64,000 nucleotides of DNA from Isoetes taiwanensis. Taxonomy: Eukaryota; Streptophyta; Lycopodiopsida; Isoetales; Isoetaceae. Below the pieces are notes generated by a model. That model did no database searches and was not told the DNA's origin. It saw nothing but the letters and a program-made list of their open reading frames with translations. Shown here piece by piece: positions 3,402-27,080 of the stretch. Numbering within the stretch: the stretch's first letter is position 1; each line of letters begins with the position of its first letter. The translations under genes and the position numbers were made by a program. Location of the stretch: positions 657,310-721,309 of the forward strand of contig JAJEKV010000127.1 of NCBI GenBank assembly GCA_021234155.1, in the 5' to 3' direction.

Positions 3402-3433
3402 GAGCATCTGATGTAGTGAGCATCTGATGTAGT
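3402..3433. repeat. 16-bp perfect tandem duplication
   Basis: GAGCATCTGATGTAGT occurs twice in tandem, followed by a partial third start (GAGCAT). Confidence 0.85.
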
Positions 3434-3616
3434 GAGCATTGACATGTTTATGTTGTGTTTTGTTTTTAAGGAAATGGCTCCTAGCAGGAAGGATAGAAAC
3501 ATTATAAGAAAGTCAAAATAGGTCAGTTACTTACCTTCTCATGTTACATTATTTTAATTAGGTCTCAAAGTGTACACACCTCAAGATATAAAAAAAAATA
3601 TATATATAATTAATGG

Positions 3617-5895: not shown

Positions 5896-7554
5896 ATAAC
5901 CAGCACTACGAAACATACCAATAGGCTGCAGAAGCAGAAGGTTTGCTTGCAGCACACAATGAGGCGATGCTAGTTATGGAGGAGGCAGTTTCTCTGTCAC
6001 TTAGTCCTACACAACTTCGTTTCCTTTTTGCAATGTTGTTACTTGACCAAGGATCAGCAATTGATTTATGGACCAAGTTTCAAGTATCTATGAGTCTTGA
6101 TTTGATGGATGAATGCCCAAATGATAATATAACTGCTTTCAATGAATCTTTGCATTTAATTAACAATATTTTGATACAACATGGCACTAGCATCACGGCA
6201 TTTGGTCTTCAATTGCATCGACACATTGCAAGAGACGTAATACGTGAAATGGAAAAATTTTCTGATTACGCATTATATTTAAGTGCCGCAATGCAAATGT
6301 CGAGTACCATGACAGATAATCAGCTAGATATATATAGGTTCTTAAGACAATGGCTAGAGTTTCCACAAATTAATGAAGCCATTTTCATTGATGGAAAAGC
6401 TGGTACAGGAAAGACATATCTCTTAAACTGCTTATGTTTGCTATTATGTGGCAACAAAAACATAGTTCTTCCATGTGCTACGACAGCACTTTCAGCACTA
6501 TTGTATCCAGGAGGACGAATAGCACACTCCCTAGATTCCTATGATTGAAAACAATGTTGGGATTCACTCAATGTTGGAGCAAGTTTCGGGAGCGGCACAA
6601 CTGCTCATCGAGGCAAAAGTTATTATTTGGGATGAGTTTCCAATGGCTAATAAAGCTGTCATAGAAAGTGCAAACTTTGCACTACAACGATTGTGTGGAA
6701 ACAATCTTCCTTTTGGGGGAAAACATTTCATAGCCTGTGGGGACTTTAGACAAGTTGCACCCGTTGTCAAGGGAGGAGGGAGAATTGCAGCATTTGATGC
6801 ATCTATAAAGTCATCATCATTGTGGAGGATTTTCCAAGTGTTGAGGTTGAACCAACCAGTACGCAATGCAGGAGATCTAGAACTCATGCAGTTTGTCGAC
6901 AATATTGGAGAAAATTGGGAACAAACCACGGTGCCGCTTGATATTAAAACATAACTACTAACATTAGAGATGCATCTGAGTTTCTTTATCCATCTAAGAT
7001 TCTGGCATACCCAAGTATATGTGAGAAATGAAATTTTATATTGCCAATCAATAAACTCGTTGACAATTTCAGTGATGGTATATTGAAAAAAGTTCCTAAT
7101 CCTGATAGGCCATATTACAGTCATGATCATATCACTGAGCAAGATGAGCCAATACATGATCATCCATATGCAACCTCGGATTTTTTGAATAACTTTACGC
7201 ACTCTGGATTCCCTAAGCATGAATTGAGGCTTAAAGTAGGGGCAATATGCCACATAATGAAAAGACTAGACATGTAAAAGGGTTTATTGAAGAATGCGAG
7301 GGTTGTAATTGAATCAATGCATGGAAAGTTCGTGGTGGTGAGAGTGTTGGGTGACACTCAACCAGAAGGGAACATATACCCGATTTCTAGAGAGATTTCT
7401 TCTATAAACCAGAAAACCGTCCATGGACTATTCACAGACGTCAGTTACCTCTTCGGCTATCATATTCGAGTACGTTTAATAGCTGCCAGGGTCTTACCTT
7501 AGATCGTATTGTCATTGATCTTCGTACGAATGTATTTGCACATGGTCAATTGTA

Positions 7555-7562
7555 CACGGCCT
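7555..7562. repeat. Target-site duplication, left copy
   Basis: CACGGCCT directly precedes the MITE and is repeated exactly at 8208-8215. In the helicase frame it encodes part of the QLYTAFTR stretch. Confidence 0.9.
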
Positions 7563-8207
7563 CTAAGTTCAAAAGCATCTTAAGAGAGATGCGTCAGATG
7601 CGACACATCGAAAGCATCTAAAGCATCGAAGCATCTAAGTTTTAAGATGCGGTTAAGCTGCGTTTGAAAAAAAATTAAATTGTCAAAAAATACCTTCACT
7701 CCATTGGAGCCTTAAACACCTTTGATCTATAGAGACTTTTAGAATTAAAATACAGAATATTTATGAATAATAGAAGAGAAAATTGTTACAGATCTTGCTG
7801 TTATAGGTTTCTTGCTGCAGATCCTTTTGCCTTGTTGCAGGTCTCCTGATCGGCTACAACATACCCTTTTTCTCTGTGGCTGACCTCTCAATCCAGATGC
7901 AAACTTCTGGCCCAACTCTCGACCTCCTTATAGACCCTACATATATAGACCCTACATGCCTGGTTTGTTGCTTGTCCCATCGTCAACAAAGAGCTTTGAA
8001 GAGAAAATGGTTACAGAAGGCCAAAGAGGCAACAAACTGCATCTATTTTAGGGTCATCGATATCAAGCAACCTAATCCAAGTGTTTTTGGCAAAAAAAAA
8101 TTTTTGAAAAAATAAGGTGAAGCATCTATGTCAAGATGCGGGTGTCGATGCGCACACATCTACATCTAAGCATCTTATTTTAAGATGCGCACATCTTACG
8201 AACTTAG
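7563..8207. mobile_element. hAT-like MITE inserted in Helitron A
   Basis: This 645-bp non-coding element has inverted ends CTAAGTTC...GAACTTAG. The 8-bp direct repeat CACGGCCT lies at 7555-7562 and 8208-8215 on its flanks. Both end regions are packed with GCATCT/AGATGC words in both orientations (7,575-7,650 and 8,120-8,190), like the subterminal binding sites of hAT transposases. An 8-bp target duplication is typical of hAT elements. No transposase frame is present. The short frame at 7876-8115 shows no transposase motif. An autonomous partner must be elsewhere in the genome. Confidence 0.88.
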
Positions 8208-8215
8208 CACGGCCT
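8208..8215. repeat. Target-site duplication, right copy
   Basis: CACGGCCT directly follows the MITE and matches 7555-7562 exactly. The helicase reading frame resumes from it. Confidence 0.9.
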
Positions 8216-8316
8216 TCACTCGTGTCCGAAATAGGGAAGATGTGTTAATACTTCTATCCCCAGAAAACACGGCCAAATCTACTGTGAACGTTGTGTATAA
8301 GGAACTTCTCTTATGA

Positions 8317-9034
<718 letters not shown>

Positions 9035-9262
9035 GGTTTCCCACATGCATGCAAATATTTTATCTCTCGTGCTATCAGTGAGAGAGATAAAATTTGTAAT
9101 GTATTTCATGAGAGGCATGAGAGATAATAATCTCTAATAATCTCTCTCAGGCTTAACCCCCTTAGTTAGCATTTTATTTCTACGGACGTATGCGGGCAGG
9201 TGCGGGCAGGCATGGGCAGGGAAAATTCGATGACCAGAGCTCTGTTAATCATGCTTTTCAAA

Positions 9263-9440
9263 ATCCATATCTGAGCTTTTCAAGCTCTGTTTTCAAGCTC
9301 TAAATCCGATCTAAATCCATATCCGAGCTTTTCAAGCTCTGTTTTCAAGCTCTAAATCCGATCTAAATCCATATCCGATGTTTTCAAGCTCTGTTTTCAA
9401 GCTCTAAATTTATATCCGAGCTTTTCAAGCTCTGTTATTC
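9263..9440. repeat. 52-bp minisatellite, about 3.5 units
   Basis: Units begin ATCCATATC at 9263, 9315 and 9367, exactly 52 bp apart, and carry TTTTCAAGCTCTG twice per unit. A decayed partial unit follows to about 9,460. It lies between two CT arrays upstream of the LINE. Confidence 0.92.
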
Positions 9441-9910
9441 TATTCAAGCTCTGTTATTCATATCTGTTATTCTAAACATAGGTTTTTATAAGTTCTGAGC
9501 AACGAATTTTACCTCTCTAAAAGGTGAACGACATGGCCAAGAGGAATGTTGCTTGCTACAAATGAGAATGAAAAATTTCCATTGTGTTTGTCCCAAGTGG
9601 CGCCTCTAGTCACAGTGCAACAGATTTTGAAGCCTTGGATAAACAAAACTTAATCCTATCAAAGGCTCAGGCCAACAAATTTAGAAGGAAGAAACCCCCT
9701 TCTTCATTTTTCCTCTGTAACATTGCTCCTTCTGGCCTCTGTATAAATTCGACAAGCAAACGTTTGTTCTCCATTTATAAAAATCAATTAAGCCAGTGAA
9801 AGCTGCAAATCCCATTTCATCTTCACAATCTGCGCAGAGAAAAGGCGGCTTCCGGCTTCATCTTTGCAATAAAATATACCTCGTCAGTTTTGTATTGTTT
9901 AGGAGCTGTA

Positions 9911-10190
9911 TAGCCATGCAAATCCGGCACTGCCATGCTCACAAAAGGGCAAATCGGTCTGTAGAAGCGGTGTAGCCATGCAAATCCGGCACTGCCATGC
10001 TCACAACAGGGCAAATCGGTCTGTAGGAGCTGCATAGCCATGCAAATCCGGCACTATAATGCTCACAAAAGGGCAAATCGGTCTGTAGGAGCTGCGTAGC
10101 CATGTAAATCCGGCACTACCATGCGCACAAAAGGGCAGAAGGGAAAAGGCCATGCAAATCCGGCACTGCCCTGCCCGCAAGAAGGAAAAG
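9911..10190. repeat. 62-bp minisatellite, 4 units plus a partial
   Basis: Units begin TAGCCATG at 9911, 9973, 10035 and 10097, exactly 62 bp apart, each with CAAATCCGGCACT. A truncated unit lies at about 10,149-10,190. It sits just upstream of the LINE, where some L1 elements of other organisms carry tandem promoter monomers. That role here is inference. Confidence 0.93.
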
Positions 10191-10361
10191 GGTAAGAGGC
10201 TTAACTATTTTGGGGCAATGCGAAATGGCCCACAGGCCAGTTAACCTATAAACTTTCTCTCACACACGAAAAGGTGAGAGTGGGTTTTCCCCTCTCACCT
10301 CTCTCTCCCCCCTCTCGCCCTCTCTCATGCTCTCTCGGATGAAAATTTGGAGCATGTGGGA

Positions 10362-10501
<140 letters not shown>

Positions 10502-10731
10502 ACGCTAGGGTTTCAGAGGTGAAAGTTCAACAGGCCATAACTCTCTCCCAGAGTGTCAGATTGGCACGTGCTTGGGCTCTTTGGAAAGCTGATTCCGAGA
10601 CCTTTCTAACAGTATATGGCATGACCAGGTTTGGATCTGTTTAGGTATCTGTAATTGTAATTTTCCGGTCGGGTATTTTCAGCAGTTGCTCTCCGGTGAC
10701 TTGGTTGCAAGTTCGTGGCTGCTACCCGACA

Positions 10732-11433
10732 ATGGCACGGAAGAAGCGGACTGCAGCAAAAGGCAGAGAGGAAGATTCCAACTCAGAGCAAGCAGAGGAA
10801 ATTTCGTTGAGTACTATTCTGAATGAACTCATAGCATTCAGGCAGGAGGCAGCATCTCGCGAGGAGAAATTAATGGCAGAAATCCAACACCTTCGGGCTG
10901 AGAATGAATCACTGAAAACAAACTTCCAGGAGATGCGAGCTGAGATTGACCAGGTAAAATCTGAAATTGTTGAATTACAGGAGACAAGAACTGAAGAACA
11001 GCATGCACCAGAGTTCTATGAATTAAAGCAAGCATTTGAATCATATGTGGAGACACAGGAAAGAAAGCAAAGGGCTTTAAATCTTCGAATTGTAGGCTTT
11101 CCGAAAGCGGGGACAAGGAGAATACTGAAAAGATGTAGTTTCAAAATTTTTCGGAAGAAGAAATGCAAGTAACAATTTGGATTTCTTTGAAGCTTTGAGG
11201 AATTGGTTCACGTGATCATGGAACAAAGCATATTTTGGTTAAATTTGTCAATAAAGAGGATAGGTTTCGTGTTTTAAAGCGAGAGGCATACATTGAAAGG
11301 CAAATTCATTTGGGTTAACGATGATCTTACAAAAGATCGAAGAGGAAAAAGAAGCGAGGAGTTGGCAAAGTTTAAAGAGGCAAAACAAAATAACCGAGAA
11401 GGTGAAATGGCTCAAAGGGAAGGTTGTTTTTAA
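10732..11433 (+). pseudogene. LINE ORF1 protein (coiled-coil RNA-binding)
   Basis: ORF1 proteins of L1 elements coat the element RNA. The frame opens with MARKKRTAAKG; the ATG at 10732 is chosen over the upstream one at 10696 because a basic start is typical. Residues about 25-125 are a long Glu/Lys/Gln-rich coiled coil (LMAEIQHLRAENESL). NLRIVGFPK follows, as at the start of the RRM-like region. A stop is met at 11,170. Past it, GTKHILVKFVNKEDRFRVLKRE and later FIWVNDDLTKDRRGKR continue the same domain across frameshifts, so the C-terminal part is present but broken. Confidence 0.8.
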
Positions 11434-11460
11434 TAGGTACTTGCGGGAGGCTTATGAATA

Positions 11461-12260
11461 GCGGTCTGGAATATTAACCGGCTGACTATTGACAAAGTTC
11501 TTAGCATGTATACAATTCTAGAGAAAGTGGATGTTATGTGTTTCGTGGAAACTAAGGAACATGATATGTATGCTCTTAGGATATTGAGGGATTCGAGATG
11601 ATATATTCAATGAAAAATATAAGATTAGGAGACACAGAATCGGGCAATGGTGGCCTAGCTTGCTTTGTAGACAAAGCATGCAAAGATTTAATCACGTGTA
11701 TTAGAAAGGATAAGAACCAACAAGTACATTTGGCTGGAAATAAAAGGATCACATATCCGTATTTCATGGCGGTATGTTATTTTGCTCCCAAGCACACAAA
11801 AACATATTGAATCGATGCATCTCGGGATGACTTGTTCTTTGATTTGGAACAGGACATCATGGATTTCCAAGCACGAGGCAAGATAATATTGGCGGGTGAT
11901 TTTAATAGTAGGATTGGCACTCTCTGATCGCTTCACTCCACGGGGATAAGGACCCATTGTGGCTGGAAGAGATGGGCCGATCATGATATGCAAATCTCGG
12001 GAAGGAGAAGACGGTCAAAGGATCTAACTGTCACTAAAAGTGGGGGCGGTTTCTCGGCTTATGTGGCACAATAAATTTGATAATATGTAATGGGCGGACA
12101 GATTTCCTCATTCCATGAATAACACTTGTCGAGCAAGGAGCATCGTAGATTATTTAGTTATGGCGGAAGAATCATTGTGTGGCGTCATCGATTTTCTGAA
12201 GAGGGAATGAAGAACTTGAATCGAGACCATAACCCATTGCATTTCTCTCTAAAGGTTAGT
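11461..12260 (+). pseudogene. LINE endonuclease domain
   Basis: This belongs to the exonuclease-endonuclease-phosphatase fold that nicks target DNA for target-primed reverse transcription. It starts AVWNINRLTI at 11461 and continues with a CFVETK segment. An open stretch at 11598-11810 contains GNGGLACFV and AVCYFAPKH. LAGDFNSRIG follows (from about 11,889), then SIVDYLVMAEES, and finally RDHNPLHFSL (from about 12,222), which matches the catalytic Asp-His region near the end of this domain. Several frameshifts and stops separate these blocks. Confidence 0.85.
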
Positions 12261-12609
12261 AGGCACATTATCAAAGATCAATATAAGCAAAAGAAATATT
12301 TTTTACAAGCCTCATCTCCATAATCGATTACCGCTCTTTGTGTTGAAGACAAGGCAGACCAATTTACAATGGGAAGGGGGTCTAAATGCCATGAGCGACC
12401 AACTAGTAAAGCTTTTAGAGGATGCGAAAGACAGAGATCTTTATCTCTCAAAGAGCACGCAGAGGCCTACCATGTAGAGCATGGTTCGACCGAGAATGCC
12501 GAGATGCTAAGCGTCAGTGGCAAACATGTGATCAGCATCTTAAAATGCACTATAAACAGCGCTATAAGCATGTTATAAGGTGTAAGAAAAGGCAATATAT
12601 CAAGCAAAG

Positions 12610-14599
12610 GCAGCAGATCTAGACGAGCCTAAACTTTTCTGGAATGGCCTTAAGAAGACTAAAAGCAATGATATTCCACTTGAAGCAGAGGAGCTATGGC
12701 AATATGTAATGGCTCTCTACCATAATGCAGCAACCAACACAAACATTGTGAGATCGACATTGGTAATTAAAGAGGAGGAGGTAAAGGACATCGTTATCAA
12801 ATGGTAAAGCACCAGATCTGAATTCTCTTAGTGCTGAACATCTAAAATGGGCAGGTCCAAGTGTTGTTCCTATCATTACTCGCATGTTTAACCTTGCATT
12901 GGCACAAGGCTTCCGTTTGATTGGTGCGAGAAAGCAGTGGTGCCGATATTCAAAGGGGGATCTAGACAAGATGCAAGTAACTATAGAACAATTCTGGTAA
13001 GTAATTTGTTCTCAAAACTTTTTGCATCTATTTTGGAGAAAAAATTGAGCTTATGGGCAGAAGTCAATCAAAAAAGGCAGTAACGCAAGCTGGTTTTAGG
13101 CCGGGCAGATCCACATTGGACCACTTGTTGGTGTTGAAAACGGTCTTTGATAATGTCAAAGGAACAAAAAAACCAGTGTATGTGGCATTCGTTGACTTTA
13201 AAAAGGCCTTTGATAAGGTTCCACGTGTGCAATTATGGGAAAGGCCACTTGAGCTTAGAACTGCAGTACAGGTGCTCTATGAGAAGGTGCTTGTAGAATT
13301 ATCACAACCTTTTTCATTTGATGTTTCAGCCCATGTAGAAAGTGACATTGGAGTGAAGCAGGGGTTGCCCCGATGTCTCCCACCTTATTTGGCTTGTTCA
13401 TTGATGGTCTAGAGGCTTGGCTACATAATAATTGCCCGGGAGGTACTGAAGTACATGGCTACATTGTACGCGATTATTGATGTATCGATGATGTTGTTAT
13501 ATTTGCAAGATCAAAAGAACACATGCAAAAACACCTAGATGGATTGGCGCATTTTGTGATCAAACAGGGCATGCAAGTGAACTTAGACAAGACAAGTGTT
13601 ATGACGGTTGGTGCTCTCAAACGGGAACCTATTTTTCAGATATAAAGGAGTCTTGTGAGTATATGTGATTCTTATAAATACTTGGGCCTTATTTTCAAGC
13701 AGGAATCATAGATGGAATATGTGTATTTCACAACGAGTTGATGGAGGGCAAAAGAGCCTTATATCGTTGCATAGCATGTGTAGGAGGTCTCATTTATGGT
13801 CTTGGAACCTTAAAGTAAAGCTGTATGAGTCACTTGTGCAAAGTGTAATCCTATATGGATCTGAAATTTGAGGGCCAAGCATTTCGCAATGTCTATGGGA
13901 TGATATAGAACAAGTCTTGAAGAAGTTCTTAAGGCTTGAGTTGGGAGTGAAAGCTCAAACACCTTACCCTATGATGTTGACGGAAAGTGGGCTAATGCCA
14001 CTTGAGGGAGAAGCTATTTTGAGGTGTATTATGTACCTCAAGAAGGTGTTGGCATTGGATGAATCTCGGCTTGCTCACAAAGCTTTGATATCAAGTAAAG
14101 AGAAAGGATTATTACATGATGTAATAAAATGGCTCCAAAAATGGGATATCCAATGGGAAGAAGTGATCTTGGTTGACTCGGATCTAAGACAATGGATCTC
14201 TAAGAAGATACTTATGAAGATGTGGAGGCAGCCCAAAACTAAGATGATCTTATACAAGCAAAGCATAAATCCGAATTTGACGCCATCTACACACTTACAG
14301 GGAAAATATTTCAATAAAAAGAGACATTCTATCTGCGAGGATCCGTCTTAGCTCCCACCATTTGGGAGTAGAAGTGGGGAGATGAGGGCATATCATACCA
14401 CGAGATCAAAGATCTTTGCAAGGTATGTGACTCAAACCGGTGGAGGATGAAGATCATACATTGCTTCGATGTAGGGCCTATGAAGCAATTCGAGATAAAC
14501 ACGGTATTCATTATAACGATCTACCCACTCTTTTTACACTTAATAGTGATATGTTGGGAAAATATTTGATTGAACTTCTCCAACATAGGGATACTTGAT
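12610..14599 (+). pseudogene. LINE reverse transcriptase and C-terminal region
   Basis: Recognisable blocks are PKLFWNGLKK, EKAVVPIFKGG near 12,940, then a 119-codon open frame (13053-13412). That frame has GFRPGRSTLDHL, VAFVDFKKAFDKVPR with the first catalytic Asp, and GVKQGLP. The usual YADD catalytic box reads C-I-D-D at 13481-13492 just after a TGA, followed by VVIFARSKEHM. Another open stretch at 13917-14351 belongs to the region after the polymerase. The C-terminal CRAYEAIRDK block runs to a TGA at about 14,597. Stops, frameshifts and the altered catalytic box make it inactive. Confidence 0.9.
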
Positions 14600-14753
14600 T
14601 AAGTTCTCACACTGCTGTTAATGTTGATAATTCAGATAGTTTGAGTGAGAGTGATGAGCTAGATGAGGATTTGGAAACTCATCTATTATTTTATGAAGAT
14701 GTTTAAGTGGTTTTGTCTAATAGGCCTTTGAGGCCTCCCATAGACATAATAAA

Positions 14754-14883
<130 letters not shown>

Positions 14884-14982
14884 AGCCCGTATGATAGATG
14901 GTTTGCTATTCAATTACCATAAGATTTCCCTCATCCATTTTTTATAAAATTGAAAGAAAAAAATAAATGAAAATGAAATGAT

Positions 14983-15353
14983 GTCCATCGCATTGATGGC
15001 CTAGTGGTCAAGCCATTGGTTATGGGCAGCCCCCATCCAGGCTCAAAACCCACTGACAATCATCGAGTGGTTAAGATAGAGAGAAAAAAAAAAGGAGAGA
15101 GACACATAGAGAAAGAAGGGAATGAACTTCGAACAAGATATCCATCGCGGTGACGGTTTAGTGCTCAAGTCATTGGTTATGGGCGCCCCCCATCCAGACC
15201 CAAAACCCACTGATTGTCATCGGATGATAAAAAAAAAATAAAAAAAATAAAAATGAGAGATGGAAAAGATGTCTATCGCGGTGACAGTCTAGTGGTCAAG
15301 CCATTGGTTATGGGCGGCCCCCACCCAGGCCCAAAACCCACTGACTGTCATCA
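14983..15353 (+). repeat. tRNA-like hairpin units, left array, copies 1-3
   Basis: Three units of about 82 bp lie at 14,983-15,065, 15,141-15,222 and 15,272-15,353, separated by A-rich spacers. Each carries an A-box-like GGCCTAGTGGTCAAGC (best in copy 1) and, about 45 bp later, a B-box-like GGCTCAAAACCC. This is the spacing of a tRNA gene promoter. The unit also folds as a whole: in copy 3 TGACAGTC-T-AGTGG (15282-15295) pairs with CCACTGACTGTCA (15338-15350). This looks like the head of a tRNA-derived SINE, but no named family was recognised. Confidence 0.7.
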
Positions 15354-15481
15354 GATGACCAAAGAAAAAGAACAAAAAATAAGGAGGAATATAAATCCAT
15401 CGCAGTTGAACAGTGGAAATCATATGGTCGTCGATTATAGCACCCATCTATCCTACGGGCACAAAAATACATGGCAATATT

Positions 15482-15496
15482 GCAGTCAACTCCTGC
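15482..15496 (+). repeat. T-arm-like hairpin, left array, first body
   Basis: GCAG-TCAACTC-CTGC is a short stem with a seven-base loop, preceded by CCTACGGGCACAAAA. The same block recurs at 16,190-16,240, so the left array is a tandem duplication of about 0.75-0.8 kb (three heads plus one body each). Confidence 0.55.
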
Positions 15497-15646
15497 ATAT
15501 TTTCAAGCTACGTTCTCAAATCGTTACCTGATCTAAGCATTTGTAGCATATAAGTGAAGATAAGAGGATTGAGACAGGTGCAGCTGGTTTCTTTGGGCCT
15601 CTTATGCACAGGGCACCATTATAAGAAGTTAATCAGACAAGGTACG

Positions 15647-15649
<3 letters not shown>

Positions 15650-15680
<31 letters not shown>
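15650..15680. repeat. Poly(A) tract, 31 nt
   Basis: An uninterrupted A-run separates the first and second halves of the left array. It may be the tail of a short retroposed sequence ending here. The 100 bp before it are not repeated elsewhere in the window. Confidence 0.9.
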
Positions 15681-15682
<2 letters not shown>

Positions 15683-15814
15683 AAAGCAAAAAAAACTCCC
15701 TTTTCTGCCCGCATGATAGATGATGTGCTATCTGATTACCATGGAATTCCCCTCGTTCATTTTTTTTCTTCGAGGAATTGAAAAAAAAAAGGTAATGAAA
15801 GAATGGAATAAATA

Positions 15815-16128
15815 ACCATCGTGATGCCAGCCTAGTGGTCAAGCTATTGGTAATGGGTGACCCCCATCCAGAGCCCAAAACCCGCTGACTGTCATTGGAT
15901 ACAAAGAACAAAATGAAATAAATGAAAAGAGTGGTAACAGCCTAGTGGTCAAGCTATTGGTAATGAGTGACCCCGTCCGAAGCCCAAAACCCACTGGCTG
16001 TCATCGGATGCAAGAATAAAATGAAATAAACGAAAAGAACATCCATCGCAGTAATAGGTGAGTGGTTAAGCGGTCGGTAATGGGCAATTCCCATCTAAGC
16101 CTAAAACCCACTGGCTGTCATCAGATGC
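15815..16128 (+). repeat. tRNA-like hairpin units, left array, copies 4-6
   Basis: Units lie at about 15,815-15,900, 15,930-16,010 and 16,041-16,128. Copies 4 and 5 keep CCTAGTGGTCAAGC; copy 6 reads GAGTGGTTAAGC. In copy 5 the arms are AACAGCC...GGCTGTCA, against ACAGTC...GACTGTCA in copy 3. The pairing is kept while both sides change. Confidence 0.7.
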
Positions 16129-16221
16129 CAAATGAACAAAGGGAAGAGACAATTACGGGAATCCCATGGTAGTCGGTTATTTCACCTATCTATCCTACGG
16201 GCACAAAACAAACGGCAATAG

Positions 16222-16238
16222 GCAGGTTCAATTCCTGC
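16222..16238 (+). repeat. T-arm-like hairpin, left array, second body
   Basis: GCAGG-TTCAATT-CCTGC has exactly the geometry of a tRNA T arm: a 5-bp stem and a 7-nt loop, with a perfect B box GGTTCAATTCC. A mirror copy with a different stem lies at 20,822-20,840. Confidence 0.65.
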
Positions 16239-16320
16239 ATGTTTTCTCGCATCTTAAGCATGACCAAAACTGAAATCTATTCAACTTATCACAAATTTCT
16301 TTTGCATGGGGTTGGACAAG

Positions 16321-16365
16321 AGAAATGTTCGCAGCGGCCTTGGCCGCCGCGATAAATTTCTTGTA
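16321..16365 (-). repeat. 45-bp palindrome-containing terminal repeat, left copy
   Basis: This block matches the reverse complement of 20402-20446 at 44 of 45 positions. It contains the self-complementary core GCGGCC-TT-GGCCGC. Its gene-facing edge, read on the - strand, is TACAAGAAATTT, like the inner part of plant CACTA termini. The edge faces the ARM gene, so the element body lies to the left. Confidence 0.8.
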
Positions 16366-16662
16366 TCATATAAATTAATTTGAATCACTTTTTTTTTCAT
16401 TTCACAAAGACACGTATCTTTCTTTCCACGTTCTATATAAATCATATGACATCAAAGGTGAGCTAATATGGGTTATCTAGATCTCTGTCCAACTATTCAA
16501 ATAAAGGGGGACACGTTATGCCACTATCTTATATGGGACGTGACTTGCAACAATTGCTACAAGAAGAAATTTTTGCATCAAATAGCAGAGAATGGGACCC
16601 AAGCAGATGTCAGACACCATGGATCTAAGTAAATAGAGAAAGTTGACTCGATTGGCGATCGA

Positions 16663-16668
16663 CACGTG
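16663..16668. promoter_or_regulatory. G-box CACGTG upstream of ARM gene
   Basis: A perfect CACGTG lies about 450 bp before the start codon, with a W-box core TTGAC just upstream (about 16,643). Such hexamers are common by chance, so function is not shown. Confidence 0.25.
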
Positions 16669-16780
16669 CAACAAACTAACTTGCACGCATGTTAGGACAA
16701 TAAAGCTTGAGATCGTCTTGGTGGCAAATTGATCGACACATACATTTGTTCTTTACTTTAGTTTAAAGATTGGCATAGAC

Positions 16781-16788
16781 TATAAAGG
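16781..16788 (+). promoter_or_regulatory. Candidate TATA box of ARM gene
   Basis: TATAAAGG about 340 bp before the ATG would imply a 5' leader of roughly 300 bases. It is the best TATA-like word in the 700 bp upstream. Confidence 0.35.
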
Positions 16789-17121
16789 CAAGCCTCTTGT
16801 TAGAGAAAGATAAAGAAGTGCATGTTCTATACAAGGTTTCTAAGAAGAAATAGACCATAGGGGTCATGTAGTTCTGAAACTGGAGTTGTTTGTGTGAGGC
16901 CATTATTATTATTTTGTCAAGTGGCCTAAGATGTATGTTTTCCTTTAGTTACAAAGTTCGATTCTGTGGTCCAAAAGTCGCAATGCCGAAAGCTGCAGGC
17001 ATCTTTTAGCTTGCCAATATGGTAACAGAGACGTTTTGCACAGGACATAGGGCAAGAGCAGACATCTGGCTTCTAAATCTCAAAAATTCATCCTCAGAGC
17101 ATCCCTGTCTTTCTTCCTTCC

Positions 17122-19752
17122 ATGCCTGAGCCCAACAACAGACTCATTAGGGTTCTTGGCATAGCAAAATTGTGGAAGCATGCATGTGGGACAATGCAGT
17201 CATTCCAGCAGCAGCCAGAAGTCCTTGCGGATCTGGAAATTCCAACACACGTCTTAAACCTCAATATCAAATCCCCATTCATGCCTGCTTATGGAGTTTT
17301 AAATTTCTCGGGATCTTCAAAAGGAGATCATTTTCCTCAGATTTCACAGAAAGCGGCAGAAGAAGAAGAGGGTGATCCGGTGGCCAAGAATTTAAAGGCG
17401 CCAGAACAGAAGCTAACTCTGGTGGCATTCAGGCTAGCCCTTCTGGAGAAATGTGCCTGTGCATTCGGCCAATTAGCCTTTATTTGGGCCACAGTTGTTC
17501 TCCTTGGTGGATTTGTTGGCACTTTGCAAGTTTTTGACTTTTGGCTCATATCTGCCCTGCTCATCACAGAAGGTGCAAGGGTATTTTGTAGAAGCCAAGA
17601 ACTAGAGTGGCAAAATGCTGCAACTAGGTCAATTTTTTCTAAGAATAGGCTCACAAAAAAAATCAAGGACAGTGCCGTTGCTAATAAAATAGCAACAGCA
17701 ACTCAAGAACATTGTGTGGATAATGATGGTAGTATGAAAGCCACTCCTATGATGGAAACCGCGTCCGAGCTTGGAGATGCAGAAGAGAGTCCAAGGGCAG
17801 ATAATGATGATAGTGATGCAACAATTCAAGAGATGAAGAAAAAGATTTTTGTCCTCCTCAACATCAAGAGGACATGGACCTTTGATGCCCTTCCATTTAT
17901 TCCCTATGCTAGTTTTCTCCTTGCAAAAAGGATCAGTGGTTTCCTTTATTTTATGCAACTCATCTCTGCAGTAGTCACCATAGGTTTCTCTTTAGAGCGC
18001 CTTTCCAGACAGAAATATGGAGAAGCTGATTCTGCTCAACCTAACAGAAACAATGCATTGAATGTTTACTATGCTCTCATGTTCACTGAGGCATTCGTTT
18101 TTTTGATTGAGAGGGCTTATTGGGAAATCAAGTTCACTTGGAAGAAGCTGTTAGAGGAAGTAACTGAGCAGTGCAACCTAAGTGAAGAACATTTTGACAT
18201 TGTAAGACAGTTCTTTTATGATGTCTATTCTTGCTCCTTGAAAGGTAGCATATTTGATGGAATAGAGAAGGATCTGGTATCATTTAGCATTGACAGGATC
18301 GAATCCAGCAGTGGCAAAGAGCAAATGGGGGGAGTTTGGATAATGTGTGCATTTGTGAAGCATGAAAGCTTTGCGGGCGATGCGGTGAGAAGGATAGGCA
18401 CTACACCAGGTGTGATTGAGAGGTTGCTAGACATGCTAACTTGGAAGGCTGATGAAGAAAGGGAGATCAGGAGGGCTACTGCATCTGTTATTTGCGAGCT
18501 CGCACATCATGAGAACAATTGCTTCAGAATGGTGGCTACAGCAGGTGGGTTAGAAGGAATTGTCTCACTTCTTGTTGAAAAAGACCAAGAAATCAAGCTT
18601 TTAGGCCTCAGAATTTTGAAGAGACTTGCAAGAGATCATAGGCATTGTGTGAAAATTGGGCAGACCAGGGGTCTGATTCTTCTTTTAGTTAATTGTTTAG
18701 ACATGAATGATGTTCTTAAGAATGACAATGAGATGAAAGTAATGAAACATGACATATTGAAGAAGTCTTTGCAGATATTGAAGATGTTGTCCGAGACTAC
18801 GGGCGGATCAGGAGAGCCAATAAGGAATGCCATAGCCAAAGCAGTGTTTGCATTGGGAAGGTTGAAGGACATAGCTGAGAGAGGAAGTCAAGATGTACAG
18901 AGGAGGGCTGTGGATATTTTAACGAGTCTTGCTTTGGAAGATGATATCAGGATGGCAATAGGCAACAGTGGTAATGCAATCAAGGTTCTACTTGATTTAT
19001 TCTTAAAGAGAAAAGACCCTTCTACTGCTGAACATGTTGTGAGTTTGAAGGCAGGAGAAGCCCTCAATCTCTTGGCACTTAATTGTCCGCGCAATTGCGT
19101 CCGAATCATCGGTCGTCGCCATAGCCATGATGAACCATGCTCCACCATTCTCAACTGCATACTTGTTCAACTTCAAGAAGAACCAAAAGTTGCCACATGT
19201 GCTGCCAAGATCCTTAGACATCTGTGTGATCATATTAATGAGCAAGAGAGAGAACTTCTTGCTTCTTACATGCCTGAACTTATTAAGATGATCATCCGCG
19301 GCCGCGACTCGAGGCTAGAGGCTGCTCTAGGCCTTGCTGCGAAAGCCATTCCTTTACTGCAGCCACCATGTTATGCATCTTTATTGGACACCATCAACAA
19401 GGATTTGATTGTGAAGGTGGTCATGAGATTGGTGTCTGGACCTGCCACTAGTCCTCCTTTAACAAGGTTGCCGCGGATCCGACGGCATACAGTGGAATTT
19501 GTCATGGAGCTCATGAAGGCAGATGAGTTCTTTGTGGTGGCCTTCAAAGAACATGATTTAGAAAGCAAGCTGACTCCAATGCTAGACTGCATCTCTGAAG
19601 TAGAGAATTTCTACACATTTAGTGGTGGTATGGGGGTTGCAAGACATAGGTATAGCATGGAAGATCTCATTGAAGCCACCCTCCACTACCTTCGAGATTC
19701 ATCATGTCCTCACCCGCTCCACCCGCTTGGATGTTTAGCACCCACAATGTGA
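17122..19752 (+). CDS. ARM-repeat membrane protein, plant BLE2-like family
   Basis: This 876-codon single-exon gene is the only long intact frame in the window. Residues about 100-155 hold hydrophobic segments (FIWATVVLLGGFVGTL, then FWLISALLI) ending in the conserved-looking EGARVF-RSQELEWQ. A second membrane block covers about 255-295 and a third about 313-330. From about 405 to 865 the protein is a series of helical armadillo-type repeats (such as RRATASVICELAHHENN). The layout matches plant multi-pass ARM proteins annotated as BLE2-like (brassinolide-enhanced 2 in rice), whose biochemical role is poorly known. An acidic low-complexity loop (about 195-235) separates the membrane blocks. 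The ATG at 17122 is first after an in-frame stop at about 17,077; Met25 is an alternative start. It has no introns and is flanked by mirrored repeat arrays. Confidence 0.85.
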   Translation: MPEPNNRLIRVLGIAKLWKHACGTMQSFQQQPEVLADLEIPTHVLNLNIKSPFMPAYGVLNFSGSSKGDHFPQISQKAAEEEEGDPVAKNLKAPEQKLTLVAFRLALLEKCACAFGQLAFIWATVVLLGGFVGTLQVFDFWLISALLITEGARVFCRSQELEWQNAATRSIFSKNRLTKKIKDSAVANKIATATQEHCVDNDGSMKATPMMETASELGDAEESPRADNDDSDATIQEMKKKIFVLLNIKRTWTFDALPFIPYASFLLAKRISGFLYFMQLISAVVTIGFSLERLSRQKYGEADSAQPNRNNALNVYYALMFTEAFVFLIERAYWEIKFTWKKLLEEVTEQCNLSEEHFDIVRQFFYDVYSCSLKGSIFDGIEKDLVSFSIDRIESSSGKEQMGGVWIMCAFVKHESFAGDAVRRIGTTPGVIERLLDMLTWKADEEREIRRATASVICELAHHENNCFRMVATAGGLEGIVSLLVEKDQEIKLLGLRILKRLARDHRHCVKIGQTRGLILLLVNCLDMNDVLKNDNEMKVMKHDILKKSLQILKMLSETTGGSGEPIRNAIAKAVFALGRLKDIAERGSQDVQRRAVDILTSLALEDDIRMAIGNSGNAIKVLLDLFLKRKDPSTAEHVVSLKAGEALNLLALNCPRNCVRIIGRRHSHDEPCSTILNCILVQLQEEPKVATCAAKILRHLCDHINEQERELLASYMPELIKMIIRGRDSRLEAALGLAAKAIPLLQPPCYASLLDTINKDLIVKVVMRLVSGPATSPPLTRLPRIRRHTVEFVMELMKADEFFVVAFKEHDLESKLTPMLDCISEVENFYTFSGGMGVARHRYSMEDLIEATLHYLRDSSCPHPLHPLGCLAPTM

Positions 19753-19878
19753 AAATACTCATTGGTTGTATAAAGAATGAAAATGTTAACATAGTATAAA
19801 AAGGTTATCCTTGAGGCGCTTACAATTTGAAGATGTTGTGTCAAATTCAAGTTTGCATCTTCACGTACGGCTTGTTAG

Positions 19879-19884
19879 AATAAA
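19879..19884 (+). terminator. Candidate polyadenylation signal of ARM gene
   Basis: AATAAA lies 127 bases after the stop codon. Plant polyadenylation signals are loose, so this is a weak call. Confidence 0.35.
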
Positions 19885-20222
19885 AAATTATATCCAAGAC
19901 CCCAAACATGAACCCAGAGTCTAAAGGCGAAGATGCACACTCGCGCGCAATACACACACGCATCACATATCAATGTGGCTAACATGATAGTAAGTGATAT
20001 ATCTTTTGACAAATTCTTACTTGGTTCTTTCCTTATGGTTAATTTTTAAGTCTATGTTGTAACCATGCCATAAGTCGTTCTTTTAATTACAAATGCATAT
20101 ATGTAATAAATATTTAGTTCTTATATATACTCTAAATCACATCCATAAGATCAGATCTTGAGGTGCTAAGATGAAGACAAAGGACTTCCAACAATCATTC
20201 ACGTGGTTTGCATGCGCTCGCG

Positions 20223-20352
20223 TATGCCCCAACAATATACAAATGCCTAATAGATATGTTGGGCCAGTTGTGGTTCAACATTATGCCCCAACAAAATCCA
20301 AATGCCTACATAGACATGTTGGACCACTTGTGGTTCAACACCTTATGCATCC
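20223..20352. repeat. 59-bp tandem duplication downstream of ARM gene
   Basis: TATGCCCCAACAA...TGTGGTTCAACA is present at 20,223 and again at 20,282, with a short partial third start at about 20,342. Confidence 0.85.
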
Positions 20353-20401
20353 CCAAATTGAGATATCCAAGCATGTATGTGTCAGCTAGTACCCTTAGCA
20401 T

Positions 20402-20446
20402 TACAAGAAATTTATCGCGGCGGCCAAGGCCGCCGCGAACATTTCT
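20402..20446 (+). repeat. 45-bp palindrome-containing terminal repeat, right copy
   Basis: This is the inverted partner of 16321-16365 with one mismatch. It contains a perfect 24-bp palindrome at 20415-20438 (TCGCGGCGGCC-AA and its complement). Its left edge, starting at 20399, reads CATTACAAGAAATTT, one base from the CACTACAAGAAA start of many plant CACTA transposons. The element body would then lie to the right, away from the gene. Confidence 0.8.
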
Positions 20447-20880
20447 TTAGTTCCAACTCTATAAAGTTGGACTAACCTTAAGTAGACCCTTCTTTATCTG
20501 ATAATAAATAGATACTCCTCCTTTATCTGATAGCAAATAGACATTCTAAATATTGCCACGATTGAATACAATAAATAGACTTTAACTACATCAATAGATA
20601 AAACATGAATTGAATCCATGTTTTTGCCTTATGTTTTGATGCCCATGGGATAAATCATTTTCTTAGTTCCAACTCTATAAAGTTGGGACTTACCGTAAGC
20701 AACCCTTCTTTATTTGACAACAAATAGAGATTCATTCCTTATCTGATAGCAAACAAACATTTTAAATATTACCATCATTAAATGCAATAACTAGACTTTA
20801 ACTAAATCAATAGAAAAATCACACAGGAATTGAACCTGTGTTATTGCCTTGTGTTTTAGTGCCCATGGGATAAAGAGGTG
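20447..20880 (-). repeat. 216-bp tandem duplication with T-arm-like hairpins
   Basis: Two units start TTAGTTCCAACTCTATAAAG at 20447 and 20663. On the - strand each carries CCCATGGGCA, GGCAA and a T-arm-like hairpin. These are ACATG/CATGT stems around 20,603-20,621, and CACAGG-TTCAATT-CCTGTG at 20,822-20,840. This is the mirror of the body block at 16,190-16,240, expanded by duplication. Confidence 0.8.
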
Positions 20881-20955
20881 TTGCTTTTAATTACCATGGA
20901 TCCCCACTCGCCTACTTTCATCCCCATCGTCTTTTATTCTTTATGTTTATTTATT

Positions 20956-21384
20956 TCACCCAGCGACTGTCAATGGGTTTTGAGCTTCGATGGGGACACC
21001 CCAGATCGATAGCCTAACCACTAAATAGTAACTGCGATGAGTGTTTTTTTCTCTTTTTTTGTTAAACATCCAGCGGTAGTCAGTGGGTTGTGAACTTTGA
21101 AGGGATATGCCCTGATTCAAAAGTCTGACCACTAGGCCAACACCGCGATGTTTACATCATTCTCTCCATCATCGTTCCTTTTTTTTTCTTACTCATTGCA
21201 CCCAGTGGCAACCAATGGGTTTTGAGCTTCGATAAGGGGACACCCTAGATCGATAGCCTAACCACCAAACAACCACTGCGATGAATGCCCCCCCCTTTTT
21301 TTACATCCAATGGTAGTCGGGTGGGTTGTGAACCGAAAGGGGATACCCGATTCAAAGTCGACCACTAGGCTAACACCGCGATGA
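20956..21384 (-). repeat. tRNA-like hairpin units, right array, 4 copies
   Basis: Minus-strand copies lie at about 20,956-21,041, 21,067-21,150, 21,198-21,286 and 21,302-21,384. The second reads TTGGCCTAGTGGTCAGAC, an excellent A box, with CAAAGTTCACAACCC in the B-box place. Copies 1 and 3 resemble each other, as do 2 and 4, so the array grew by duplicating a two-unit block. The orientation is opposite to the six copies at 15.0-16.1 kb. Confidence 0.7.
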
Positions 21385-21768: not shown

Positions 21769-23455
21769 TCAACAAAGGAGTTCCTTATAGACCACATTTG
21801 TTGTTTGTCTCGTTGTGTTTTCGGGGCTGAGCAGGATAAGTGCATCTTCTCTTTTGAGTATCCGTGTAAGATCTATATACAGTTGTCCATGTGCAAAGAC
21901 GTTCGTGCGTAAGTCAAGAACAATGCGATCCAATGTTAGTCCTTGACAACTGTGGAAAGTGGTTGAGTATGCCAGTCGGAGAGGCAGTTGGCGCTTGTGG
22001 ATAGTCCATGGCCGATTCTCGGGTTGGTAGAAGAAATCTGTTCTAGAAATTGGATATACACATGTATCCGGTGCACCCAATACCCTTACCATTACAAATT
22101 TTGTATGCATTGATTCAATTATCATTCTAGCATTCTTGACGAGACCTTTATCCATATCGAGCCGTTTCATAAATATGACATATCGCTCCTACCTTAAGTT
22201 TTAATTCGTGATTGGGAATGCCAGAATGGGTGAAGTTGTTAAGGAAATCCGATGTTGCATAGGGGTGATCATGAATGACCTCCTCTTGTTCGCTAATATG
22301 ATCGTGACTGTAGTATGACTTGCTACTGTTGGGGACTTTAGTTAGTACACGTTCATTGGAGTTGTTGACATTCTTATTGATGGGTGTCAATGATGCTCTA
22401 CCTTCGCATTCGGGTGGATTTTTTAGGATATCAGGCGGATAGAGAAAATGTTCAGCCTCTACAATATTGGTAGTTATTTTGAAAATATCGAGTGACACCA
22501 ACGAACCGCATAAGTTCGACATCTCCTGGCTGATGTAACCTTAGCACACAAAAAGTTTGCCATAATGGCGATGACTTTATGGATGCTTTGATCCGCGGCG
22601 CTTTTTAAAGCCTCCTTTACGACGTAGCTACTTGTCTAAAATCTCCAGATGCTATAAAGTGCTTTCCCCCAAATGGTAGGTTATTTCTACACAACTGTTG
22701 TAATAAATAGTTCACACTTTCTATCACAGCTTTATTGGCCATTGGAAATTCATCCCAAATTATGGCCTTCGCTTCAATGAGCAATTGAGCTGCTCCAGAA
22801 TTTCGATCCATTAGTGAGTGTAAACCTGTATTACTTTCTGTGACAGGGATTTGAAAGAGTGAGTGCGCCGTTCGACCTCCTGGATATAATAACGCACAAA
22901 GTCCTGTCGTGCCGCATGGGAGTACTATATAACCTTTACCACGTAGAAATAGGCATACGCAATTGAGCAGGAATGTTTTACCTGTTCCTGCTTTTCCATC
23001 CACGAAAATTGGTTCCTCACTCTGTGGACGTTCTAATTGTTCGCATATATAGAGGTATATATCCGATTGGTTAGTGTTCATCATGCTTTCCATTCGCATG
23101 ACAGTATTTATATATGACGCATGATTTGGAAATCTGGCTAGTTCGTGCATGACGTCTCTTGAGAGGCGAGGCTGTAATTGCAAGCCAAATGCCATGATAT
23201 TGGTACCATGTTGTGTTAGTATGCTATTAATCAAGTGAAGAGACTCATTGAATGCAACTGACTCATCGTTTGAGTATTGATCCAATAAATCAAGGCTCAT
23301 AGGCGACTGGAACTTATTCTATATTTCAATTGCTAGTGCCTGATCAAGCAAAAGCATCGCAAATAAAAAGCGCAATTGTGTGGGACTTAAGGATAATGAT
23401 GTTGCTTCTTCCATAACTAATCTTGCCCTCGTTGTGTGCGACAAGTAGTCCTCGT
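21769..23455 (-). pseudogene. Helitron B PIF1-like helicase
   Basis: The open stretch at 22617-23300 holds Walker A GKAGTGKT, Walker B IIWDEFPMA and GGKHFIASGDFRQV. The frame then breaks near 22,617, and diverged sequence (22,500-22,610) bridges to the open stretches 22148-22522 and 21769-22170. The last one keeps SCQGLTLDRIVLDLRTNVFAH, GQLY and ALILLSPENT. The start region (LSPTQLRFLFAMLLLDQ, about 23,345-23,400) has TAG where Helitron A has Trp. The C-terminal part is continuous where Helitron A carries its MITE, which confirms that the A insertion is secondary. Confidence 0.88.
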
Positions 23456-23469
23456 GCCTCTACCATTCA

Positions 23470-25955
23470 CCACTTTGAGCTCTTCCCATGTTTCATGAGG
23501 TTGATGTAGTAAAATTTGTCTTAAATAGAATGCCTCCCTCACCCGAGGTAATAACAAACGTATTCTATATATTATAGGTTGTCTTGATCTTTTTTTAACA
23601 ATATTTCTAGTGAACCCTGTTCGCTCTTGTTCTAAGTAGCCAGTGAATTGCGTTCCTTGCGTCGTGCTATACGTTACTCAATGTATATTGTTCGTGGTAT
23701 TGAATATATGTAACGCTATCAAAAGCCGAATCCAAGGGTCGCAAAAAATAGCGATCCAAAAGTGACACGGAATTTGGCAAAGATAAATGCAATGGAAGAC
23801 ACTTGATGAGGGTGCCTTATCGTTATATGGTAGGACATTGTCCTCCGGGATGCTTCCGCCGGTGGACAGTGTATCGTGCCTTTATGTAGTCTCGTATTTC
23901 ATTCCTTGGCGCTGATCTTTCCTGCATTGTTGATTCATTTTCAGGTGTCTATCTCCTGTCGTGTATTCTCGGTTCACTAATTCCCAATGGGATTTGTGCA
24001 TCAACTGCATGCCTCTCTCGAGTTACTTGGAAATTGGTACTGTCGAATCCCTTGTATATGTATCCATAGAGATAAGAGAAGACATGAGCAATTGGATGCA
24101 ATATCCACCATAATATGACAATCTAGTTAGGTGGAGAAGAAAGGGATTATATGGAACAACCCATACATCATCGAGACCTCATACGTATTGTACATAACCT
24201 CTTGAGTCAAGATGGGTTCGTGGATTTATAGGTTTTGGATAGTCGTAAATGCAAGGTGTGTTATTTGCAGAGCATCTTTCTGTATGTCTATGTATCATAA
24301 ACTTTTCAACTTGACCTCGCAGAACTGGGTCTGTTGGAAGTTCAGCAGAGATATTTTGATCGACGCTGTCAATTGTATATCGGGTTTCTGTACGCAACAC
24401 AAGGTGAGCATGTGGCAATCCTCGTTTTTGAAATTCTATAACGTGTATCATATAGGACACATGCTGAAAGAATTTGTGGAGTAGCTCTTTTAGCCGTTGT
24501 AACCTTCCATGAAAGCATCGAACAACGATTATAGGCACATCGGCAGCGGTTTGTCCAGGGTTGAGTGCAAGTCGTATTTCCGGCCAGTCTGTATTTGTTG
24601 TCATCGTGATAAATAGCGTAGGGCGGCCTTTTGCTCTAGAAAGAGCAAGTGCATCTGCAACTTGCACAGAGCACCATCTCTTACATCCTAGGAATGATGC
24701 AGGCAAACATTAGGGATTTTTTGAGATCATAAAAGGGCCTTCTAAGAACTGCTGACTAAGCTATATGAACTACCAATCTAAAAGCGAGGCGGTAATCGGT
24801 CGGCCAAAGAAAAGTTATAACTAACTCCTTTGGATCATTTTTTCTAATATAAGTGTTGATAAAAAAAGTCCAAATGAGCTCTTGTTTGGTGCAATAGATA
24901 GATCTCATTGAGATCTTTCCAACCTTGGGTGGTTTGCATATCTTTTAACCCCGTAGGATAGTAAAAAATGGTAAAAACCATATTTTTTGGAGTTTTGACA
25001 ATCATAAGTAGTTAAAATATGTGCAAAGCACCTAAGATTGGAAAGATCTCAACGAGATCTATCTATTGCACTAAACAAGAGCTCATTTGGACTTTTCTAT
25101 CAAGAGTTATGCTAGAAAATGTGATCCGAAGGAGTTAGTTCTCAGCTTTTGAACTAGGACCTGAACTCGATTTCTGATTGGTAGTTCATTTATCTTCATT
25201 TGGCTTAGTTGGCATGTTTTGAAGGCCCTTTTTTAATCTCAAAAAAACCCTAATGATAGTATCATTCTGGTCATCATTTTCCCGCTCCGAGTAACCCTCA
25301 TCATACTGCGTCCTCCTATTTTTGAAAGCTAGTGTCCTAAAATAATTCAATCGTGCATCTTCTACTCTTGAATACATATTGACTAAATACTCTCCACACA
25401 AAGCGACCTAGATGTAAGAATCGATCTTCATGTAATAATCTTGCCCTATACCACTGCAATTGTGTCAACCCATGCTCATTTCCAGGCCCCCAACCTAATG
25501 TACCATGCGGATAGAAAAGCGGATATTGTAGCGGTTCATACATTGGATCAAGAATATTCATGAAGATCGGCTCTCCCTCGATTTCGGACCCAAAACCCGC
25601 AGCTTCGAGGTCTGATTTTGGCCGTATTCTTGACCTCTCGCAATGGCGGCAATTTCATGCCGCAACCGGCTCACGCGGTATATATATATATGCGATGGCA
25701 CGCGATGGTCCCCATAGTACGAAGGTTTTGAATAAATGGATTTATTTGGTTCGAGAACCGAACCAACTAATCCAATCCTTTCGAAAGGTACCTCCAAATG
25801 TCCAGCTCGTGTATAACGTTGCGACTCATCATAGACATACCAATGTATAGGATTTCTAGGGTCCGACATTGGGAGCAAAGCGGTGATATGTGCGTCTCGT
25901 GATAGTCACAAATGAAGGGAAATCTAAAGCGAACCCAAGTCAACTCCAAGCACAC
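23470..25955 (-). pseudogene. Helitron B Rep region
   Basis: Read from high to low coordinates, it shows an IHWYVYDESQRYTR stretch, then EPLQYPLFYPHGTLGWGPGN (25,450-25,550) and GEYLVNMYSRVEDARLNYF. After the foldback insert comes the Rep core, open at 24179-24706, with the HUH motif GLPHAHLVLRTE. Past a frameshift, YLYGYIYKG follows at about 24,045-24,073. The region connecting to the helicase (FTRNIVKKR, RIRLLLPRV) is visible to about 23,500. It is clearly non-functional, but it preserves the segment deleted in Helitron A. Confidence 0.85.
24708..25255. mobile_element. Foldback/MITE insertion in Helitron B
   Basis: This 548-bp insert is almost entirely an inverted repeat, with arms of roughly 240-270 bp and ends CATTAGGG...CCCTAATG. 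Both ends continue with a T-run, GAGAT and AAGGGCCTT. It splits the Rep frame just before PASFLG. Removing 24708-25255 joins the two sides in frame, matching Helitron A at the same place. No clear target duplication was found, so the superfamily is unassigned. Confidence 0.85.
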
Positions 25956-25981
25956 TAAAACAAAATAAATTGTTTACTCTC

Positions 25982-26703
25982 CTAGATCACGGTATTGAAA
26001 CTTGGGTCGTTATACAAATTGTTGAGTCTTTTTAGGCAAGGGGTAGCAATGGCAATAACCATCTCCCATTGTTGCAGCCAATACCCATTACGTTCAACAC
26101 CGAGGCAATAGAATATGGCAATATGTACATCTCTTATTCCACGTGGCCATAGCATAAGTGCGGCTTTATTTGAATTCATCGTTGTGCTTGAGCTTGCCAA
26201 TGCCTTGAAGATTGTTCTAAATCCTCTATTATACATTGTTCTCTTATGGGACTAGCGACTGAATTTACCGTTGTGTTGGATTTTGTGTGGTATCCATTCT
26301 AGTCCCATCTATAATCACTTGCTTGTTATGATTCACTTGTTCATCAACTCTATTCTTATCTCGATGCTTTCTAGCAATTTCTATCAATCTCTCATGCCTT
26401 CTCTCTCCAGTCACATCTGACAACACTCTAATAGTATGTGTGACATCTGCCTCATAGCATCTGAATTTAGTGAAGCATCACAAGTTGAAAAAGTACACGT
26501 TGACATCGGCATGGACATCTTTTTTGTGCATCGACCCTAGTAGAGCTGATTTTTAGTCTGCGCTTGATCGATTATTCTCAATTTGTGAGTGTTTGTATGT
26601 GCTAATACTTTCTGATGTTCTATTGGAGTATGCACCCATCGAGCTTGCGTCTGGTGTTACATTAATAACGGAACATGTTTGAGATGGATGAATATCCATA
26701 TGA
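25982..26703 (-). pseudogene. Helitron B N-terminal region
   Basis: The open stretch 25982-26236 ends WLQQWEMVIAIATPCLKRLNNLYND, which corresponds in place to the LPPLPALPVALNTLYN segment of Helitron A. Above it, a basic stretch with RRHERLIEIARKHRDKNR (about 26,340-26,400) and a 49-codon open piece starting MDIHPSQTCS at 26,703 are plausible N-terminal sequence. Stops separate the three, and the true start is not identified. Confidence 0.5.
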
Positions 26704-27080
26704 ACATAATTCATTCTTTGTTATTCGGGTATACCCTCTGAGGATATACATGTGTCTTGATTTGTAAATGTGTTAGTAGATGTGGATCCCCTACATTACT
26801 AAAAGTAGTACTCCTCATCTCGATTGTCGTCTTACATGTTATCTCGATCGTGTTCGCGATATCTCACTGTTCCTCGATCAAATTTGTATATCTTTGATTT
26901 TTAATTTGGATCGTGTTTGGCGCTTTCGGCGTTCTCTAATCGCATCTCTCTCTCTCACACACACACTCTCTCTCTATGTTCCTCACTCAAGTTTGCATAC
27001 CAATGTCTACGATATGCATTTCGATCTCGAGCTATGTCTAGTGAAAGAAAATTCACTTCTATATGAATCCCCTATTGCAA

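Follow-up and report, generated by a model that had tools for sequence, protein, structure and literature searches.

Helitrons of the canonical type begin with TC and end with CTRR, the 3' end being preceded at 10-12 nt by a hairpin, and they insert between A and T. In Helraiser, the Helitron1 element of bats, this hairpin is described as a terminator (PMC4778049). A related arrangement is found in a 64,000-nt stretch of the Isoetes taiwanensis genome (assembly GCA_021234155.1, contig JAJEKV010000127.1, positions 657,310 to 721,309 of the forward strand; hereafter the window), where repeat blocks are mirrored on the two sides of an ARM-repeat gene. Moving outward from the gene, a palindrome is followed on either side by body repeats and then by an array of hairpin repeats, here called heads; in the left/right alignment the blocks are colinear and keep one orientation per side. 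Very probably these blocks form the noncoding 3' tails of two autonomous Helitrons, now decayed, that inserted separately and with their 3' ends toward the gene, which is a host gene lying between the two insertions. The pattern is real and its explanation is ordinary, apart from the conserved row of hairpins inside each tail.

The likeness to Helraiser, as that element is described (PMC4778049), extends to the RepHel protein, the 5' TC, the GC-rich hairpin about 11 nt from the 3' end, the insertion before T and the lack of a target duplication. In contrast to Helraiser, the end is CTTG rather than CTAG/CTRR, and the tail contains the head array. CTTG is reported in the same account for some insertions of Helraiser vectors deleted for the hairpin, and also with maize Helitrons. 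HELPO2 of Pleurotus ostreatus likewise has CTTG as its 3' end, carries a subterminal hairpin and inserts between A and T, but it is fungal, and its description mentions no head array (PMC4289320). DHH_Mothra of rice is, like the present elements, a Helitron with internal tandem-repeat blocks (two in Mothra) of variable number. It is described as non-autonomous and AT-rich with a CTAG end (PMC4683698), whereas here the arrays follow the RepHel stop codon and precede the terminal hairpin, with conserved hairpins as their units. In Arabidopsis, too, tRNA or tRNA-like units in tandem are associated with Helitrons: a tRNA-Cys cluster there overlaps annotated Helitrons, and the tRNA fold is speculated to act as, or to disturb, the 3' terminator (PMC10701932). 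According to that account the units there are tRNA genes, over which Helitron tools give no reliable prediction; here, in contrast, RepHel and exact 3' ends are present, and none of the tests run identifies the heads as tRNAs. Among titles and abstracts in the open-access library searched, no published description of a Helitron with such a hairpin-array tail was found.

In the window, a decayed RepHel gene lies upstream of each head array and is oriented like it, with frames interrupted by stop codons. The left coding remnant (3683..8316, + strand, stop codon 8314-8316) holds pieces of the Pfam Rep domain Helitron_like_N (E 2.9e-27) and of PIF1 helicase (E 3.7e-12), located on 4519-5520 and 5925-6545. 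The right remnant (21769..27000, - strand, stop codon 21771-21769) holds pieces of PIF1 (E 1.1e-37) and Helitron_like_N (E 1.6e-27), and resembles the left copy up to 26214 and weakly to about 26999. When the window is compared with itself, 4094-7554 (+) and 26214-21878 (-) appear as colinear inverted stretches 66-76% alike, and the two remnants finish in similar sequence, at 8316 (+) and 21769 (-). Since these remnants end before the arrays and share their orientation, a RepHel gene precedes each heads-body-palindrome set on its 5' side. The order of the tail is RepHel stop codon, inverted body (in some copies), heads, body with a short hairpin, GC-rich terminal hairpin and CTTG, before T. 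With later inserts included, the left Helitron occupies 3115..16363 (+), from a 5' limit that is approximate and taken from comparison with a short copy elsewhere (L035) to a CTTG end followed by T.

The terminal hairpin is the palindrome block. Its left copy (16316-16365, +) has its CTTG end at 16363, then T, and its right copy (20402-20451, -) has its CTTG end at 20404. The two are inverted copies of one another, 94% alike over 50 nt, and the palindrome core GCGGCCAAGGCCGC has no further match in the window, an equal number of matches being found in 0 of 100 shuffles. The 3' end reads as a GC-rich GGCCGCCGCGA stem, then TAAATTT, then CTTG, which places the hairpin 11 nt from the end. A survey of 3' junctions gave 34 rows, of which seven were set aside by eye as the mirror arm of the palindrome. 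At all 27 distinct junctions, in all loci read, the next base is T. CTTG stands at 26 of them and CTTT at one; the search pattern included CTTG, so that this count is biased and the T is not. The Helitron features found are thus RepHel (Rep HUH and PIF1), a hairpin within 10-12 nt of the 3' end, a variant CTTG end and the 3' T. By RepHel and this 3' end the elements, for which the first-pass annotation knew no named family, are Helitrons. Their 3' ends point toward the gene rather than away from it, as that annotation had it, and counted with the Rep/helicase remnants they extend past its coordinates by about 12 kb on the left and at least 5 kb on the right.

The order that it had described, palindrome, body and heads with six heads on the left in + and four on the right in - orientation, is confirmed by the positions of the blocks and of the head-model matches. 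The left head array (14985..16128, +) consists of two groups of three hairpin heads, at 14985-15070, 15142-15227, 15273-15358, 15816-15902, 15926-16011 and 16043-16128. The right array (20956..21384, -) has heads at 21303-21384, 21198-21284, 21066-21151 and 20956-21040. These ten heads are the sole matches of the head model in the window (E 6.6e-12 or better), the model having been built from the same ten. In the left tail three heads plus a body form a unit that is present twice in tandem, the first body at 15411-15510 and the second, which includes a short hairpin, at 16153-16252 (both +). The right bodies (20805-20904 and 20585-20684, -) belong to a tandem duplication of body and subterminal stretch (20440..20874, -) of about 216 bp and 83% identity. 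Inverted body copies lie on the far side of the heads, at about 14885-14929 and 15701-15759 on the left (-) and 21479-21520 on the right (+); the copy at 15701-15759 precedes the second left head group, and that at 21479-21520 lies upstream of the right heads. The ARM-repeat gene (17077..19752, +) is open for 891 codons from stop to stop, the longest open frame of the window, and matches Pfam ARM_ARMC5 (E 3.4e-10) and ARM_PUB (E 4.5e-5), both under the curated cut-offs.

The same order recurs elsewhere in the genome. The assembly searched comprises 1.658 Gb in 1110 contigs. A palindrome query of 68 bases (the right palindrome and its neighbour) gave at least 358 candidates, with full-length matches at 94-100%, and the heads and bodies gave at least 598 and at least 260; 40 of each were scored. 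Head loci were counted once per place (L034 and L041 being the same place as L027, L042 as L031, and L050 as L045), and the window and its duplicate on contig C952 (L043, L049, L051) were excluded, which leaves 15 independent loci. In nine of these (L026, L027, L030, L031, L032, L036, L038, L039 and L040) a RepHel C-terminus lies upstream of the heads in the same orientation, 389-803 bp away. L031 and L032 have a common 3' flank (L032 yielded no junction row of its own in the survey above) and may be a segmental duplication, in which case the linkage is 8/14 rather than 9/15. The terminal hairpin, at least in part, follows the heads in 14 of the 15. Among the eight loci found with the head query, one of which is the window, heads, body and hairpin follow one another in L027, L030, L031 and L032; the hairpin is reduced to 19 nt in L028 and is not seen in L026, and L029 is without a body. 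All eight loci found with the body query have the full order (one is the window and one the L027 place), with the hairpin truncated in some. For example, in L042 a PIF1 frame is open to 7274, the heads start at 7836, and a body and the hairpin follow, the latter ending at 8323. L041 reads RepHel end, heads, hairpin. At a cut-off of E 0.01, a head model made from sequence only gave 58 matches, spread over 18 of 36 loci. No other convergent pair within 10 kb was present in the scored head and body lists, where the window's own pair is also undetectable, its right heads being too diverged.

Other copies end in the palindrome and show no heads. At the seven palindrome loci read outside the window (L002-L008) the hairpin is present, and the sequence covered contains no head. 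One headless family is made up of four of these loci (L002, L003, L005 and L007), 90-95% alike, and L003 has only the final 67 bp in common with the right copy of the window. That the palindrome ends headless copies as well agrees in part with the first-pass annotation's own refuting condition, namely that the blocks occur independently over the genome without this order. Both ends are visible in three full-length copies of the headless family, each about 2.65 kb, which are 91-94% identical. They begin with TC (TCAAAAC), end in CTTG before T and show no target duplication, and the base before the outermost 5' end is A in all three. In L022 the first ~117 bp of a headless copy (7139-7255) are repeated in tandem directly upstream of the 5' end. 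A short copy with heads is also found: in L035 (about 850 bp), 218 bp match the left element's 5' region (91%) and about 325 bp are other sequence, and one head, a body and the hairpin are present too, so that both ends exist within one short unit. In L036, from about 1667, half a hairpin is fused to sequence resembling the Rep coding DNA of another Helitron.

By analogy with Helraiser, RepHel would nick the element at its 5' end and unwind the strand, pausing at the terminal hairpin in its presumed role of terminator; the strand would then be cut after CTTG and joined to a T of the target.

Several observations weigh against this Helitron interpretation. The 3' end is CTTG, which departs from strict CTRR, and the scoring covered just 40 of the candidates of each block. 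RepHel was not seen in the stretch read at six of the 15 head loci (L028, L029, L035, L037, L045 and L048). The 5' TC is seen in the three headless copies; the left limit in the window is known just through L035, and the right 5' limit is not fixed. The base preceding the likely start is not A, either at the left limit or in L035, and one inner 5' copy in L022 is preceded by C.

The mirror symmetry could also have arisen by a single inverted duplication, of the element or of a larger segment, around the gene, and the mirrored similarity does cover most of 4-26 kb. However, the left and right tails are just about 59-65% alike over the longest alignments, yet of the loci read, L041 is the closest to the left tail (95% identical) and L050 to the right tail (94%). 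The similarity also goes no further than CTTG, with unmirrored sequence between the tails. The tail identities contradict a duplication, which is thereby extremely improbable; instead, because each tail is far closer to a copy elsewhere than to its partner, the mirror reflects two separate insertions. The 3' flank of L041 departs from that of the window past CTTG, so that L041 and the left copy are themselves separate insertions. Judged from these sequences, the flanking tails represent two Helitron subfamilies, inserted separately with their 3' ends facing the gene. The first-pass view that two copies of one complex element frame the gene is borne out in that the element recurs in the genome, and needs amending in that each of the two tails has its nearer relative at another locus, not across the gene. 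Nor do the inverted blocks make the palindrome the end of a CACTA transposon, with terminal inverted repeats and with the gene between two such ends or inside one element. CACTA elements are bounded by CACTA...TAGTG inverted repeats and end in CACTACAAGAAA, and the right block reads CATTACAAGAAA at 20399-20410, one mismatch away. Identity nevertheless stops at CTTG and is variable beyond, none of the 27 junctions reads CTTGTAGTG, full-length copies begin TCAAAAC and not with the inverted 3' end, and the coding part upstream is RepHel. The junction survey and the TCAAAAC starts contradict this possibility, which is likewise extremely improbable.

Asymmetric terminal inverted repeats, as in elements of the Helitron2/Helentron type, deserve slightly more credit and are still very unlikely. 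The inverse of the 3' end, AAATTTATCGC, occurs in both 5' regions of the window (3224-3234 exactly, 27888-27898 with one mismatch), five matches being found in the window against 2.11 expected; in L035 it lies about 105 bp inward of the 5' limit, again with one mismatch. The left match is, however, also about 105 bp inside the 5' limit, and the three full-length headless copies carry AAATTTATCGC at their 3' ends only. The Rep motif is GLPHSH in the left copy and GLPHAH in the right; GLPH, common to both, is the Helitron form, Helentrons being described with S in place of L. With headless 5' ends free of AAATTTATCGC and the left match internal, this possibility was mostly dropped, and the AAATTTATCGC matches in the three 5' regions are either chance or a subterminal inverted repeat.

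The heads are the unusual part of these Helitrons. Each is a unit of ~86 nt, and each of the ten in the window folds alone as a long tiered hairpin, with 27 pairs in the consensus. An alignment made from sequence only holds 50 distinct heads, of which 40 lie outside the window, after removal of matches under 75 nt and of identical ones. At a mean identity of 76%, 92.7% of the pairing cells are paired (93.0% in the 40 outside heads), against 25-48% when the partners are slid by 1-3 columns. There are 1208 paired cells, whereas 500 shuffles gave 1167 on average and 1181 at most. Watson-Crick double changes occur in 9 of the 27 pairs, and departures at pairs with a Watson-Crick consensus are G-U in 97 cells and A-C in 37. 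These cells are not independent, since the arrays grow by duplication and the copies are related. The pattern suggests, but does not prove, a constraint on the sense strand.

The first-pass description of the heads as tRNA-like has weak support: ARAGORN found no tRNA in them, and Rfam tRNA gave no match at E up to 5. A scan for A-box and B-box words allowing 2+2 mismatches found 20 pairs in the window (mean 10.55 and maximum 21 in 20 controls), six of which are heads, and one allowing 1+3 mismatches found 14 (control mean 6.75, maximum 12). If the heads were a tRNA-derived family of short interspersed nuclear elements (SINEs), or tRNA-like units, whose array was inserted into an ancestral Helitron, the tail would be a Helitron with a SINE passenger. 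In some heads the A- and B-box-like words are 43-44 bp apart, a distance near tRNA spacing, and A-rich linkers separate the heads. On the other side stand the lack of any ARAGORN or Rfam match, the folding of all ten heads as one long hairpin with no cloverleaf, and the absence of head-model matches from 16 stretches without head-bearing tails (L009-L024). A SINE origin is accordingly doubtful. Our best guess is that the heads are repeats of the tail whose hairpin is retained because copying and transcription handle the element as a single strand. A more specific role is tentative and about as doubtful as the SINE origin: the array may be a working part of the Helitron, a row of hairpins inside the 3' end, perhaps captured from an RNA polymerase III gene, that would act as structure in a sense-strand transcript or as auxiliary pause or terminator hairpins in rolling-circle copying. 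The 92.7% pairing, the double changes and the bias of G-U over A-C are the grounds for it.

The left Helitron looked less clear than the right because of later inserts. The stretches 7403-7562, 8208-8917 and 14854-16373 of the window adjoin in L041 (97, 89 and 95% identity, respectively), which therefore lacks two inserts. One, of about 650 bp, lies in the left RepHel (7556..8207) with ~8 bp of target repeated, and the two L041 matches bordering it overlap by 8 bp, the pattern expected of a target duplication; TCTAAGTTC and GAACTTAGCA, the ends of this insert, look inverted. The other lies in the left tail (8918..14853), with CT tracts at both bounds, and contains a decayed long interspersed nuclear element with a reverse transcriptase at 13005-13409 (RVT_1, E 1.6e-7). 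On the reverse strand of L041, upstream of the RepHel end (about 260-4630), there are open stretches of 144-204 aa, unlike the Helitrons of the window, which may be captured, nested or host sequence. In the right Helitron, 24708-25255 (about 75% self-complementary) and 27078-27864 (about 92%) are foldback stretches, probably nested inverted-repeat elements. The end of contig C952 (L049/L051) carries a copy of window positions 16998-29684 at 94%, flanks included, in which the ARM gene is frameshifted and the palindrome mutated; it was taken as a duplicate of the locus (an allele, a homeolog or a poor contig end).

An apparently unnamed element framing a gene thus becomes a Helitron family with a defined 3' end, one that a search based strictly on CTRR would miss. 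Its RepHel-bearing copies, with hairpin repeats just inside the terminal hairpin, offer a setting in which to test the speculation, made for Arabidopsis, that tRNA-like folds act as or disturb the 3' terminator (PMC10701932).

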